Positions 3,126-10,356 of a stretch of DNA of 10,356 nt are shown here, piece after piece. Both the position numbers and the translations under genes were made by a program. The stretch covers positions 1-10,356 of the forward strand of contig PJAB01002127.1 in the NCBI GenBank assembly GCA_002887195.1, in the 5' to 3' direction. The first letter of the stretch is position 1, and each line of letters begins with the position of its first letter. Origin of the DNA: Chrysochromulina parva. Its lineage: Eukaryota > Haptophyta > Prymnesiales > Chrysochromulinaceae. The notes beneath the pieces are model-generated. The model was not told the origin of the DNA. It did not search any database and worked only from the letters and a program-made list of their open reading frames with translations.

Positions 3126-3141
3126 TCAGTCGAGGACGCAC
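3081..3141 (-). other. Possible short intron near the 3' end of the NTF2-like repeat gene (alternative C-terminus)
   Basis: On the minus strand a GTGCGT donor (from 3141) overlaps the TGG codon for W924. A TCAG acceptor ends at 3081, with a CTGAC branch-point-like word about a dozen bases upstream. Splicing would keep W924 and replace CVLD with a 24-residue basic then acidic tail beginning GKRKSAITVV and ending at a TAG at 3005-3007. The intron would be 61 bases, shorter than the two better-supported introns in this window (83 and 93). No family conservation guides the choice, so the unspliced end at 3126 is kept as the main model. Confidence 0.25.
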
Positions 3142-5912
3142 CATGGCAGTCCGAGATCTTTGGGCCGCGGCGCCATCTCCTTGTCCTTGGCCGTCTTGAG
3201 GCCGCCCTTGGACAGAGCGGGCGGCTTGGCGATGGCGTCGGACCACGCGGGTCGGTTGAGGGCGGCCGCTGCGGCTGAGGCAGGCCGCTGTGCATCGGTC
3301 TGCTTGGCGCGGCGGCGCTTGGCGCGTAGCCGCTCCCAGACGGACTGCGCCTGTGGGTGGTCTTCAGATAGCACCTCCCACACGACGCGTGTGATGGCGG
3401 TGCCACGCCACTCAGCCGTCTCCCGCATCGCCACCTCTTGCTCGCCATACCACTTGGCGCCGAGGGGACGGAAAGTGCCGATCAAGATGGCCTGATAGAG
3501 GCGCGCCGCCGGCGCCGGCGGCTTACCCGGCTTGCCCGGCGGCTTGGGCGGGGTAGGCATGCCCTCGGGCCACGTCCACGCGCCAAGCTCGCGCGTTCGT
3601 CCAATATGCGCGATACGCCCGCCGAGCCGCGTGGCCGTGGCGAGCAGTGCTGCCCTCGCCTCCGTCGGGTCGGCATACACCTTGCAAGCTTGGCCGTCAG
3701 CGATGGCGAAGGCCAGGCGAGGCAAGTCGAACAGAGCGGGTAGCTCGCGCGTGCGCCCGGCGCCCACCATCTGGAGAAAGTCGCGCTGCATGGGACGTGG
3801 CTCGCGCACGCGCACCCACGAGCTCACGTGCCCAGCTGCATCCCAGCCGATCACGTCCAGGAAGCGCTCGGTCTCACCCGCCTTATTATGGATCTCGAAG
3901 CTCGTGGAGGTGCGCCCGTCAAGCCGCATGGCCGAAGGTTGGATATTAGCCAGCATGCGCCGCGTGCGAGGGATCTGTGCCGCCTTGAGGTACGCCATGA
4001 GCGTCGAGCGCCCCTCGAAGCGCACGTCCGATGGCGGCGCCTCGGCGTCGCCGCTGCACACGTGAAACTGGACTCGTTCGCTCAGCAGCTGCGTGAGCGC
4101 CTCCAGCTCGCCCGCGCCCGCCACGTGCTGCAAGCGCAACAACTCCTGCGCCATTTCAAACGTGTCGAGCATCTCGCCCGCCCTTGCGCCCTCGGTCAGC
4201 AAGCGCAGCCCGGCGTACTCGAGCGCTTGCGCCTTCGCTGCCTCCCGATCCAGCGCTGAGGATTCGGCCTCTAAGGCCAGGCTTGCTCGCGCGAGGGCGA
4301 CAGCACCGCGCACGCGCAGCCGTAGTGAGAGCGTGCCCCATCGCTGGCGCACGCGCACCGCACGCACCTCCGCCTCCACCTTTAGTTCAAGGTCCCGACT
4401 CACCTCCGCCGTGATCTCTCCGAATGCGTCCGCCAACGGGCGGCTGATGAAGCCTCGGCGCTCGCCTTCTTCTCGCATCAACTCCTCGAGCGCCGGGTTG
4501 GCGCTCGGCGCGGTCGCGCCCGCCGTCTCGTCGCCCACCAGCAGCAACCGGTACACGTCGTCCGCACCGTCCACGCCGACGCCCGCGAGAGCGCCGCCTC
4601 CCCGGCCCCCGCGTAACCGCATAGGCGAGTCGGTGCGGCTACGGCTGCGGCTGTTGCACAGGCGGTCCGAGGTCGTAGGCGCTGTCGCGTGCACGCTCGA
4701 GCGACGCACCTCATCGCTCTCGGCCGCATGGTTCGCCGAGTACCCGCCCGCATCCAGGTCAATGTAGACCTTGCTGCCGAAGGCGCCTTCGCGCCCATCC
4801 CCCTCGCATGCATCGGCTTCGTCGTCGTCGTTGCCCGCGAGCGGACCGTAGAGCATCGCAGTGCTGCCAGCGAGGGCGGCGGCTGTAAAGACGTTCATTG
4901 GGAGCGCGCCACCGCTCGGGTGCGCGTCAGGAAGGGCCAGCGTGCGCCGCCACAGCCGGCACACTTGCCAGCCGGTGCCGGCCATACCAAAGCCACCGCC
5001 ACCTCGGCGGCGGCGGCGGCTGCTGCTGCTGCTGCTGCTTCCAGCGGCGGCGGCGGCGGTGGGGCCTAACGTGCCGCGGCGGGGTCTAACGTACCGCCAC
5101 TCAAGGGTCTCCTCGAGCAGGGCCTCTAACGGCTCGCCGCCGGGCGCGATCGGCCACCGGCCGGCGATCGAAACGCGAGTGCGCCTGCGCTCGATGTGCT
5201 TGGTGCGAGAGAGCTGCATGGTGTCGCCCGTCTGGCCGAACGTCGCCACCGCAGCGTCCGTCGCCCAGCGCAGCAGCCGTGGGAGCACGCGTGCGGCGCC
5301 CGTGCACTCGGAGGCAGATGCACCGCCGCCGCCGCCCTCTGCATCGTGCAGAACCACGTCATCCGACAGCAGCGCCGAAACCGCCGGGCTCCGATGCTGC
5401 AAGGCTTCACACCACTCGCGGTGCGTGGGCGGCGGTTCGACCACCCACACGAGGTGGAGCGCGAGGCCGGTCACGCTCCACACGGCGTTCAGCCCGTGCC
5501 GATTGCCGAGCGTGTCGTGCCAGAGCGAGCGCGTCTCGCCCCGCGGCAGAAGCTCCGCGGGCTCCATGCGCAGTATGGGCGCCTCAGCCGCCTCGCTGAG
5601 CAGCAGCTGGGCGCTTGCCGCGCGGCCGCGTGCGCTCTCGCACAGCTCCGGTGCTGCATCGTCAAAGTCGCCGTCGCGCACATGCACCGTACAGCGCTCG
5701 TGCAGCAGGCCGGGCAGCGTCCCTTCAACAAAGCGTCCTCCCTTTGTCAAAGGCTGGGCAGCATCCGAAGCAGCTGCGGAGAAGGCACGCACAAGGGCCT
5801 CATGCTGATGCAGCACGTTAAAGCCGCCGCGCTCGCCGTCTGCATCGGTGTTATCCACCCAGCGTACGCGAGGTGGCATATTTTCCGAAGCGCCAACGTT
5901 GCCGACCGCCAT
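3126..5912 (-). CDS. Unrecognised 928-residue protein with several divergent NTF2/SnoaL-like repeats
   Basis: I cannot name this protein. It has no signal peptide or membrane segment. Four stretches look like copies of an NTF2/SnoaL-like alpha+beta cone: about 66-160, 180-328, 603-705 and 726-850. Three begin with the same pattern, a helix end LL then S/H, acid, two or three residues and H (LLHERCTVH 69-77, LLSDDVVLH 181-189, LLSERVQFH 609-617); each is followed about 70-140 residues later by aromatic strands (ALHLVWVVEPP, WQVCRLWRRTL, FLDVIGWDAAGHVSSWVRV, TAITRVVWEVL). The third is the clearest SnoaL-like copy, with an FEGRSTLMAYL helix. Between copies two and three are Ser/Arg/Gly runs (290-309), a disordered acidic/Arg-Ser part (360-445) and a charged helical stretch (500-600). 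The C-terminal tail (860-928) is Lys/Arg/Pro-rich. NTF2-like folds bind small ligands or act as protein adaptors; no catalytic role can be assigned. The start at 5912 is the first Met; M12 is an alternative. Confidence 0.7.
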   Translation of the reverse strand: MAVGNVGASENMPPRVRWVDNTDADGERGGFNVLHQHEALVRAFSAAASDAAQPLTKGGRFVEGTLPGLLHERCTVHVRDGDFDDAAPELCESARGRAASAQLLLSEAAEAPILRMEPAELLPRGETRSLWHDTLGNRHGLNAVWSVTGLALHLVWVVEPPPTHREWCEALQHRSPAVSALLSDDVVLHDAEGGGGGASASECTGAARVLPRLLRWATDAAVATFGQTGDTMQLSRTKHIERRRTRVSIAGRWPIAPGGEPLEALLEETLEWRYVRPRRGTLGPTAAAAAGSSSSSSSRRRRRGGGGFGMAGTGWQVCRLWRRTLALPDAHPSGGALPMNVFTAAALAGSTAMLYGPLAGNDDDEADACEGDGREGAFGSKVYIDLDAGGYSANHAAESDEVRRSSVHATAPTTSDRLCNSRSRSRTDSPMRLRGGRGGGALAGVGVDGADDVYRLLLVGDETAGATAPSANPALEELMREEGERRGFISRPLADAFGEITAEVSRDLELKVEAEVRAVRVRQRWGTLSLRLRVRGAVALARASLALEAESSALDREAAKAQALEYAGLRLLTEGARAGEMLDTFEMAQELLRLQHVAGAGELEALTQLLSERVQFHVCSGDAEAPPSDVRFEGRSTLMAYLKAAQIPRTRRMLANIQPSAMRLDGRTSTSFEIHNKAGETERFLDVIGWDAAGHVSSWVRVREPRPMQRDFLQMVGAGRTRELPALFDLPRLAFAIADGQACKVYADPTEARAALLATATRLGGRIAHIGRTRELGAWTWPEGMPTPPKPPGKPGKPPAPAARLYQAILIGTFRPLGAKWYGEQEVAMRETAEWRGTAITRVVWEVLSEDHPQAQSVWERLRAKRRRAKQTDAQRPASAAAAALNRPAWSDAIAKPPALSKGGLKTAKDKEMAPRPKDLGLPWCVLD
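4998..5100 (-). repeat. Compound trinucleotide tract plus a 20-base direct repeat in the 928-residue gene
   Basis: On the plus strand there are runs of CGG, then CTG, then again CGG/GCG triplets (about 5003-5060). Read on the minus strand they encode five Ala, seven Ser, five Arg and four Gly. Directly next to them (5061-5080 and 5081-5100) are two 20-base copies matching at 16 positions, each containing CTAACGT. The tract interrupts the second NTF2-like copy between EWRYVR and GWQVCRLW. On the minus strand it begins with GTACGT, a good splice donor, and offers several CAG acceptors, so it might be an in-frame intron rather than protein. Confidence 0.85.
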
Positions 5913-7916: not shown

Positions 7917-9866
7917 ATGGGGCGTCGCCGTCGGCCTAAGTTTGATGCCTCCGGATACGATGACATCGTCTCGGGCGTCAAGGCCATCTACCGCGACATG
8001 GTACGCCCGCTCGAGGAGCAGTACCTTGTGAACCAGTTCCACTACCCGATGCTCACCGACCAGGACTTTGATGCGAAGCCGATGGTGCTGCTCATCGGAT
8101 CCTACTCGGTCGGAAAAACCACCTTCATCAAGTACCTGCTCGACCGGGATTACCCAGGCGCCCACATCGGCCCGGAGCCGACGACCGACCGTTTTCAGGC
8201 GATCATGTTTGGCCACAGCGAGCGCGAGATCCCGGGCCACGCGCTCATCTCAAACCCATTGTCGCCGTTTGCGGAGCTGACCAAGTTTGGCAACACGTTC
8301 CTCTCGCGCCTGTACGGCTGCGAGGTGCCCTCGGACTTTGCCATGGGGTGCACTCTGGTCGACACGCCGGGCGTGCTCGCCGGGAGGAAGCAGACCGAGG
8401 ACCGGCAGTACTCGTACTACGACGTGATCAAGTGGTTCGCGCCTCGCTGCGACATGATCCTGCTCATGTTCGACGCGAACAAGGTCGACATTCCCGACGA
8501 GCTCGCCGACGTGATCCGGCACCTCGAGGGCTACGATGACAAGATCCGCGTCATCCTCAACAAGGCCGACTCGCTCGAGCCGCACGAGCTGCTCAAGATC
8601 AATTCGGCGCTCACGTGGAACCTCGCGCGCATCCTCAAGGGTGCAGAGACGCGTCGCATCTACGTGGGCTCGTTTTGGGACCAGCCGCTGCGGCCGAGCT
8701 ACATGATGGAGCTGTTCGAGACCGAGACGACGGCGCTGCTGAACGACCTCGCCTCGCTGCCGCGCAACAACACGACGAACAAGCTCAACGACCTCGTGTA
8801 CCGCACACGCATGGTGCGCTGCCAGGCGCTCGTGTTGGACGAGTTGCGCTCCGAGACGAGGAAGGTGAGGATGGGCAAGCGGTCTATGTTGGCCTCTGAT
8901 GGCCTCTGATGGCCTCTGACGGTTTCTGATTGCCTCTGATTGCCTTCCTCATGTCAGGTGATGATGGGCAAGGACAAAAAGCAGAAGGAGCTCATCGCCG
9001 GGCTCGAGGATATCTTCTTCAAAGTGTCACGGGCACACGCAATCCCACCCGGCGACTTCCCCGACGTAGCCAAGTTTCGGCACATCCTCGCCACGAACGA
9101 GTATTGCCGCGACTTCACCAAGTTCAAGAAGCTGGATGACAAGCTCTTGGGGCAGCTCGACACGATCATTCGCGATCACATCGGCAACCTCATGTCCGCC
9201 TTTGAGGCCGTCCCAGCCGCCACCCCCGCGGTCCCGAGCGGGGGTATGCGACAGCCGGAGCCCAAAGGGCAGCCCGCACAGTCCACGTGGCAGCCCAAGC
9301 CACAGGAGCACGCGGCGACGGAGCACTCGGTGATGCCTCCACCCTCGGCGCCGCCGAGTGACCCTTGGAGCTCGTCCCCCGTCGCTGTGCCGTCCGCGCC
9401 CACGATGGCGCCGAGGGATCCGTGGGCGACGGCGCCCGCTGCACCCCCCGCGCGCCCCGCCGACACGGCGGGCATGGTCGACGGTCTCTTTGGCCGACCG
9501 ACCACTGCCGCCGCTCCGCCGGCGCCCGTGCCGCCGCCGCCCACGGTGGCGCTCTCCCGGATGGCGGTGTCCACCCCTTGGGCGGTCACGAGCGCGGAGA
9601 AGACCAAGTACGACTCGATCTTCGAGCAGATGCTGCCCGAGGACGGCAAGGTGGGCGGCAGCAAGGTGGCGCCCGTGCTCAAGCGTTCGGGGCTCGACCA
9701 GGCTGTGCTGCGCGACATCTGGAACCTGGTGGACGTGAACGAGGATGGGCTGCTCGACGCCGACTGGTTCGCAGTCGCCATGCACCTCACCATGAAGACG
9801 AAGCGCGGCGAGCCGCTCCCGACAACCATCCCTGAGGCGCTCATACCGCCCTCGAGCCGGCGGTGA
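7917..9866 (+). CDS. EHD: EHD-family (C-terminal Eps15-homology domain) dynamin-like ATPase, two exons
   Basis: Exon 1 is 7917-8864 and exon 2 is 8958-9866; together 618 residues. EHD proteins bind ATP, oligomerise on curved membranes and drive recycling and scission of endosomal tubules. Seen in order: a polybasic start (MGRRRRPK); the N-terminal helix PLEEQY..NQFHYPML; the P-loop GSYSVGKTT (61-69; most EHDs have GQYSTGKTT); the switch-I signature GPEPTTDRF (85-93); DTPG (149-152) in DTPGVLAGRKQ; NKAD (215-218); IYVGSFW and LPRNN...KLNDLV of the helical domain, continuing across the intron in KDKKQKELIAGLEDIF and PGDFPDVAKF. Then comes a Pro/Ala-rich linker of about 125 residues (400-527) and a C-terminal EH domain (about 528-618) with the NPF-pocket Trp in IWNLVD and the usual ending LIPPSSRR. 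The EH domain is C-terminal as in animals, not N-terminal as in land plants. Odd points: a much longer linker than animal EHD1-4, two DPW motifs in it, and Trp at position 12 of the EF-hand loop. Confidence 0.95.
8865..8957 (+). other. Intron of the EHD gene (93 bases), bounded by a direct repeat
   Basis: The donor is AAG|GTGAGG and the acceptor is TCAG|GTGATG, phase 0; splicing gives ...ETRKVMMGKDKKQKEL..., which fits the EHD helical domain. Without splicing the frame stops at 8907-8909. A 17-base word at the donor (8863-8879) recurs at the acceptor (8956-8972) with one mismatch, and each copy contains AGGT across the splice site. The centre of the intron is a 10-base tandem repeat. Confidence 0.93.
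8891..8940 (+). repeat. 10-base tandem repeat inside the EHD intron
   Basis: Five consecutive 10-base units: GGCCTCTGAT twice, then GGCCTCTGAC, GGTTTCTGAT and TGCCTCTGAT, followed by a partial TGCCTT. The repeat fills more than half of the intron. Confidence 0.97.
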
Positions 9867-10237
9867 GTGAGAGGGCGGCCTAGAGTGCGACTAACGTGCG
9901 TGTGCCCGTGAAAGAGTCTGAGAACTGACGAACGAGGACGTCGACGTGCAAGACTCATTAGATCCTTATGGATATCGCAGGGATCGTATGTTGAGGCAAG
10001 GGATGGTGGACACACGACACGTAGGTGCCATAGGTACGTGTTGTGAACGTGTGCGCGTGCCGCGTGGCGGAAGTTGCATTTTGATTTTTTCACAACATTT
10101 ACACCGTACAAGCCTCAACGCTCAAGCGTGCGGCTCGTGTGCGGTGTGTTCGCTACATCAGCCGATCAGGGATCCGCGAAAGGAGAAATACCCGACCGGT
10201 GTATCGGAGACGGAGGATCGCCTTCTCGTATACGTTT
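9867..10237. other. Non-coding region downstream of EHD
   Basis: This should hold the EHD 3' UTR and then intergenic DNA. It is less GC-rich than the gene. A T-rich stretch occurs near 10078-10090. No canonical AATAAA was found, and no gene or structured RNA was recognised on either strand; the long minus-strand open frame crossing from 10111 into EHD is antisense shadow. Confidence 0.5.
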
Positions 10238-10356
10238 GCCTCAGTTTCGTCGGCTGCAGTGCCTCAGTTTCGTCGGCTGCAGTGCCTCAGTTTCGTCGGC
10301 TGCAGTGCCTCAGTTTCGTCGGCTGCAGTGCCTCAGTTTCGTCGGCTGCAGTGCCT
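10238..10356 (+). repeat. 23-base tandem array running off the window edge
   Basis: Five identical 23-base units start at 10238, 10261, 10284, 10307 and 10330, with four bases of a sixth before the sequence ends. Each unit begins GCCTCAGTTTCGTCG and ends GCTGCAGT. The full length is unknown because the array continues beyond the window. The word TCAGTTTCGTCG within the unit also occurs at 5960-5971 in direct repeat copy A. Confidence 0.98.

Follow-up and report, generated by a model that had tools for sequence, protein, structure and literature searches.

Results

The EHD gene and its predicted intron

The window analysed here is one entire contig of 10,356 nucleotides (PJAB01002127.1) from the haptophyte Chrysochromulina parva, taken from an assembly of 45.07 Mb in 2199 contigs (GCA_002887195.1). 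It carries an EHD gene on the forward strand, whose coding sequence runs from 7917-8864 and 8958-9866 once a putative spliceosomal intron of 93 nt (8865-8957) is removed. Exon 1 is an open frame that ends in ...GAGACGAGGAAG and encodes EHD_N, Dynamin_N and the start of DUF5600; exon 2 encodes the remainder of DUF5600 and the EH domain (Pfam). The intron is bounded by GT...AG and lies in phase 0. As the first-pass annotation had proposed, a piece of exon sequence is present in duplicate at its two borders. It contains in-frame stops, and its predicted removal restores the protein. The junction falls at residue 316 of the spliced product, within a DUF5600 match that extends over residues 285-395, and the joined sequence, ETRKVMMGKDKKQKEL, is collinear with 12 homologues with no duplicated segment there; one extra residue at the junction is common to the query and its closest homologue. 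The nearest proteins with algal names are those of Chrysotila carterae (58% identity) and Prymnesium parvum (61%). Beside the EHD gene there are two long intronless reading frames, at 362-2725 on the forward strand (787 codons) and at 3126-5912 on the reverse strand (928 codons). A perfect 23-bp tandem array (TGCCTCAGTTTCGTCGGCTGCAG, 5.2 copies) at 10237-10356 reaches the contig end and may be the reason that the contig stops there.

The intron is bracketed by a direct repeat, AGGTGAGGATGGGCAAG at 8863-8879 and AGGTGATGATGGGCAAG at 8956-8972, with 16 of 17 bases identical and a spacing of 93; the near-perfect repeat, its spacing and the frame are all as the first-pass annotation had described them. 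The AG that opens the repeat (8863-8864 in the upstream copy) is ambiguous, since the 3' end of the element family described below likewise finishes in CAG. The 15 nt that follow it, 8865-8879, form the upstream copy of a putative target duplication and contain the predicted donor GTGAGG, while 8958-8972 opens exon 2. At position +5 there is a T in the exon copy and a G in the intron copy. Anchored in this way the repeat scores 12.5 over 15 nt; an equally good anchored repeat was found in the same 600 bases in 2 of 2000 draws, for which 45-base starts were taken from elsewhere in the window, those falling within the tested stretch being ineligible.

Downstream of the upstream copy come ten bases (CGGTCTATGT, 8880-8889) that are neither exon copy nor clear repeat, and then a 10-bp array of unit TGGCCTCTGA at 8890-8945 (TRF; period 10, 5.6 copies), the repeat part of which matches elsewhere in the genome and within which CTGAY is branch-point-like by motif alone. 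The acceptor is provided by CTGATTGCCTTCCTCATGTCAG at 8936-8957. This is the 3' module of the family, CTGATTGCNTNCCTCATCAG, with a 2-nt insertion (GT), the intron ending CTGATTGCCTTCCTCAT-GT-CAG. In all, 15 of the 93 bases are exon-like and 78 are not exon-derived; 68 of these 78 (8890-8957) consist of the 10-bp repeats and the dispersed 3' module. The first-pass annotation had called the intron recent, which is no more than possible for EHD, its repeat copies differing by one base and its module bearing a 2-base insertion.

In the same genome, two EHD paralogues (identity 49% and 41%) can be aligned uninterrupted across the intron position; a third, weaker match stops short of it. This pattern fits a gain of the predicted intron in EHD, though loss in the paralogues may account for it instead.

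A dispersed family with a constant 3' module

The genome was searched with window positions 8780-9050, giving at least 104 matches (40 of 288 candidates scored). The window itself excepted, all of these lie inside positions 92-188 of the query, a stretch that covers the repeats and the 3' module with a few bases after it. The same layout recurs, in which GT and a copy of the start of the next exon are followed by TGGCCTCTGA-type repeats, then by CTGATTGCmTTCCTCATCAG or a relative of it, and then by the exon. The first-pass annotation had suggested a search for other introns with matching ends or the same 10-base repeat; the 10-bp repeats and the 3' module recur at hundreds of other places. The 10-base repeats form a real array, and local slippage does not suffice for them, the repeats being a property of the family.

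The 3' module consists of 18 fixed positions. There are 753 exact copies of CTGATTGCNTNCCTCATCAG in the genome, 395 forward and 358 reverse, compared with 0 for the reversed-pattern control, and GT follows directly after 502 of them. In 15 random 4-kb stretches, modules with at most 4 mismatches were present in 6, with a total of 21, of which 15 were in one array (reversed control 0). A near-identical module occurs in many unrelated genes, the spliced hosts spanning different Pfam families. In other genomes, 11 contigs of bacterial or archaeal collections had one match each, which is close to what 18 fixed bases would give by chance in 257 Gb (about 7 by our own estimate). A viral vector for the element was considered and rejected, there being 0 matches to the module in viral contigs; introns of mirusviruses are described as including candidate introners (PMC12768974).

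Duplication of the exon start

Regions around the first listed module copies, 73 in number and from the largest contigs, gave 100 distinct sites. The bases directly after the acceptor are GT at 70 sites, GC at 16 and others at 14. At 61 of the 100 there is a repeat whose anchor is the first exon base (score of at least 10, distance of at least 45); swapping the exon starts between sites gave on average 2.45 per 100 over 20 permutations. The other 39 module copies have no anchored repeat under this criterion. Among the 61, another acceptor-like CATCAG lies ahead of the upstream copy at 11 and a module lies soon downstream at 9 more, leaving 41 simpler cases, 8 of which have a further module (CCTCATCAG) inside.

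At the 41 simpler sites a constant duplication length was not seen; the repeats are 10-86 nt long (median 25), and identity reaches 95% or more in 24 of them. The repeats of 80 and 86 nt, the two longest, continue into the element and are tandem copies, which leaves 39 of 10-46 nt. There is no trade-off between the length of the repeat and that of the insert (rho -0.20, p 0.27, 33 sites). The upstream copy starts with GT at 28 sites, GC at 8 and other bases at 5, and the base preceding it is G at 30. The presence of GC after 16 of 100 modules and at the start of 8 of 41 upstream copies suggests that GC-AG introns arise by the same route.

The exon copies that start with GT are themselves donor-like: a purine is found at +3 in 29 of 30 and G at +5 in 21 of 30, and the target has G at -1 in 21 of 30, compared with 51%, 30% and 26% respectively for a background of 6464 GTs. 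Nothing now requires this of the exon copies, and judged by their bases the target sites were already donor-like. Improvement of the donor after insertion was also considered, but G at +5 occurs in 27 intron copies and 26 exon copies of the 41 sites, so no trend is apparent.

Several loci depart from the simple layout. Tandem arrays at L040 (2485-2950) and at L021, L026 and L030 have units of 56-83 nt, each made of an exon start and 3' module and ending in an acceptor-like CATCAG or CATCAA, in 3 to about 8 copies; the arrays resemble the outcome of successive rounds at a single site or of unequal exchange. At L065 (site at 670) and L114 (site at 671) CAG precedes the upstream repeat copy, and here the element may have landed at an existing border of acceptor and exon, shifting the acceptor downstream without making a new intron. 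Two overlapping direct repeats surround GTACGACCTCTG at L043 (1569-1690), with CTGGCAG at both borders, which is possibly a mirror case where the end of an exon has been duplicated instead of its start.

Reading frame, domains and orientation

Frames were compared with a codon model trained on 12 ORFs and EHD, which was used because a test by stop codons is weak in a GC-rich genome; in that test 24 of the 41 simpler sites are open when spliced, compared with 12 and 18 for shifted controls and 3 unspliced. By the codon model, the frame before the donor resumes after the acceptor at 31 of the 41 sites and does not at 10. Where the frame was confident on both sides, it agrees in 23 of 27 sites when spliced but in 6 of 27 unspliced; phase 0 applies to 15 of these 23 frame-keeping sites. 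Sixteen of 25 other spliced partial proteins, the 25 being picked mostly for agreeing frames, were scanned against Pfam. In 10 of the 16 a match at E<=0.01 spans the junction, 7 of them above the curated cut-off (Fn3-like, TPR, UCH, HhH-GPD, MutS_III, sulfatase and EamA), and 6 have no match across the junction at this threshold.

A strict rule for orientation gave 23 sense, 0 antisense and 77 unclear sites (nine bacterial sites left out), and a loose rule gave 62 sense, 16 antisense and 22 unclear, random stretches scoring 951 to 977 by the latter (n=3000). The bias towards sense is thus strong under the strict rule only, and weaker under the loose one.

The ends of the element

The element has 10-bp repeats that end in CTGATTGCNTNCCTCATCAG, with the acceptor AG at its right end, and in most of the copies examined it lies immediately before a donor-like GT or GC of a gene. 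Its right end is constant, which is partly a matter of ascertainment, the copies having been found by the 3' module. The left ends are ragged within the repeats; inserts are 20-203 nt long, with 51 or 52 nt in 8 of 41. Microhomology at the left junction has a mean of 2.06 nt compared with 0.54 nt expected, from the 16 scorable of the 41 sites, although L074 inflates this mean. Terminal inverted repeats are absent (3.05 of 14 positions match, control 3.09).

Five remote matches to reverse transcriptase (RVT_1) were found in the genome, none tied to the element. Two of these frames were scanned, and Pfam names RVT_1 alone in them at E<=0.01. The long frames with such matches form two groups, L127, L128 and L130 on the one hand and L129 and L131 on the other.

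Discussion

A probable introner that brings its own acceptor

The EHD intron is, on the evidence of its sequence and of its relatives in the genome, very probably a copy of a haptophyte introner family that carries its own 3' splice site and obtains its donor from a long target duplication of variable length. That the predicted donor lies inside the target copy and the predicted acceptor is brought by the element is directly legible from the anatomy. As the target stretch is present on both sides of the insert (61 of 100 sites), the upstream copy would give the donor, and predicted splicing returns the original exon. The first-pass annotation had mentioned introner-type insertion with target duplication as its second option, and this is the better fit to the duplication of exon starts seen at 61 of 100 module copies.

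Insertion would take place at a staggered lesion that has the donor-like site as its left edge, and fill-in would then produce the duplication. A constant 3' end together with a ragged 5' end, the microhomology and the lack of inverted repeats speak for retroposition or templated repair rather than for cut-and-paste transposition. What is found at these sites, a variable target duplication with a constant 3' and a truncated 5' end, is what non-LTR retroposition (SINE-like, by target-primed reverse transcription, TPRT) leaves behind. Tentatively, and at somewhat less than even chances, we suggest that the element is copied from intron RNA or its cDNA, where splicing at CAG would fix the 3' end; the 5' end would be truncated within the repeats and attached through microhomology of 2-3 nt, in the manner of target-primed reverse transcription. 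Such an RNA route is possible, given the reverse-transcriptase reading frames. The tandem arrays would be built up as exon start and 3' module together were duplicated again in subsequent rounds.

The copying step, rather than the introner core of this reading, could instead be the work of DNA repair, and this is quite possible without being probable. An exon with a staggered break or a stalled fork would be mended on the template of the 3' half of an intron already present elsewhere, with a return by short homology at CAG/GT, and fill-in would leave the repeat; the insert would be templated filler made without reverse transcription. The variable repeat lengths, the microhomology at the left junction and the G at -1 of the right junction (30 of 41) agree with this, as do the arrays of exon start and 3' module, which share the geometry of a tandem duplication described in potato (PMC4974935). 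By itself, however, repair explains neither a single constant 3' end across hundreds of genes nor the preference for donor-like sites.

That preference can be read in either of two ways: insertion is drawn to such sites, or just such insertions are retained. Retention alone would require that many insertions were lost, and numerous intergenic copies would then be expected. A more specific form of the RNA route, which we regard as rather unlikely, is that a mobile 3' splice site is at work, intron RNA that ends in its own acceptor being reverse-transcribed into exons at pre-existing cryptic donors via a long staggered cut. The splicing machinery would perhaps already have marked the cryptic donors in the transcript, and the long cut would copy the donor to the other side. 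If this were true, introns would be born where the spliceosome favoured sites before the intron existed.

A cut-and-paste DNA transposon, as for the introners of several algae, is improbable here. The principle that the element brings one splice site and the target duplication the other is known (PMC9860276), but the duplication has no fixed length (10-86 nt, and 10-46 nt in 39 of 41), which already largely refutes this mechanism; neither the constant short duplication nor the terminal inverted repeats of DNA-transposon introners were found, and the inserts of 20-203 nt have ragged left ends.

The first-pass annotation had favoured tandem duplication of an exon segment containing AGGT as the source of the intron, with the 10-base repeats growing by slippage. 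The duplicated segment does contain AGGT, and this was a fair reading of EHD alone; it is now highly improbable. Under the Rogers model of tandem exon duplication the body of the intron should come from the duplicated exon, yet only 15 of 93 bases are exon-like, and the body is not from the exon because the 3' module and repeats recur at hundreds of loci. Nor is AGGT the rule, because although G precedes the upstream copy at 30 of the 41 simpler sites, the base before that is A at only 15. Finally, convergence on one acceptor (branch point, pyrimidines, CAG), with the repeats owed to chance or to selection for donor-like exon starts, is scarcely conceivable: any acceptor needs part of the module, but not 18 fixed positions in 753 copies with a control of 0, nor repeats of 20-46 nt, many of them 100% identical, against a control of 2.45 per 100.

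The multiplication of introns has long been an open question, and many of the introners described show marks of DNA transposons. The scar of the present family, a long and often still perfect copy of the target, shows where the element went in and in which direction, what the exon sequence was beforehand and how old each intron is relative to the others. With hundreds of datable intron births, dependence on RNA, targeting of donor-like sites and later improvement of the donor would become testable given a single relative in culture or a set of strains.

Comparison with known introners and intron gains

Introners that take one splice site from a target duplication are already known, with repeats of 3-9 bp in the families characterised previously, and some of those published are described as also having no terminal inverted repeats (PMC9860276). 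Close in principle are those of Symbiodinium microadriaticum (Gozashti et al. 2022, PMC9860276), which likewise recur as introns in many genes, the element giving the acceptor and the duplicated target the donor; there, as reported, the duplications are of 4 bp and inverted repeats are present, whereas here the duplications are of 10-86 nt (median 25), inverted repeats are lacking and the 5' end is ragged. The same survey describes an introner of a Chrysochromulina sp. (a haptophyte TARA genome), likewise from a haptophyte and without inverted repeats, but with a 4-bp duplication and a reversed polarity, the element carrying the 5' splice site and acquiring the 3' one (PMC9860276). The introners of Amoebophrya also have direct repeats at the intron borders, though these are given as 3-5 nt, with inverted repeats of 8-20 nt and many non-canonical borders (PMC7789003). 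Micromonas introner elements are sense-oriented, gene-bound and near-identical, as here, and their authors propose an RNA route (PMC3879977); reverse splicing of the kind they envisage would be expected to leave no exon duplication, in contrast to the long one seen here.

New introns attributed to the repair of staggered breaks in Daphnia pulex similarly carry, at their opposite end, a second copy of the exon end, and repeated rounds of breakage were proposed there too (PMC4202315). The exon repeats reported are of 4-12 bp; here they are longer, exceeding 12 nt in 39 of 41, and the insert is one shared family rather than unrelated filler (PMC4202315). In the tandem duplication of the potato RdRp gene, a cryptic donor lies in the duplicated exon start and the acceptor comes from the copied 3' side of the intron, which is the geometry of the tandem arrays here; that was a single local event, as described, whereas this is a dispersed family, mostly without a parental intron at the site (PMC4974935). 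Long border repeats as such are not unheard of, since in a 2025 survey 213 introns of every kind are reported to have repeats of 4-30 bp (mean 11.4) at their borders or close by (PMC11782384).

In the literature covered, mostly the main texts of open papers, no haptophyte introner with long variable duplications was found; the present family may be listed in the supplements of the 2022 survey (PMC9860276) with its duplication uncalled. We count it as a new introner variant because of its long and variable duplication, an element that is barely more than a 3' splice region, and its repeated rounds at a single site.
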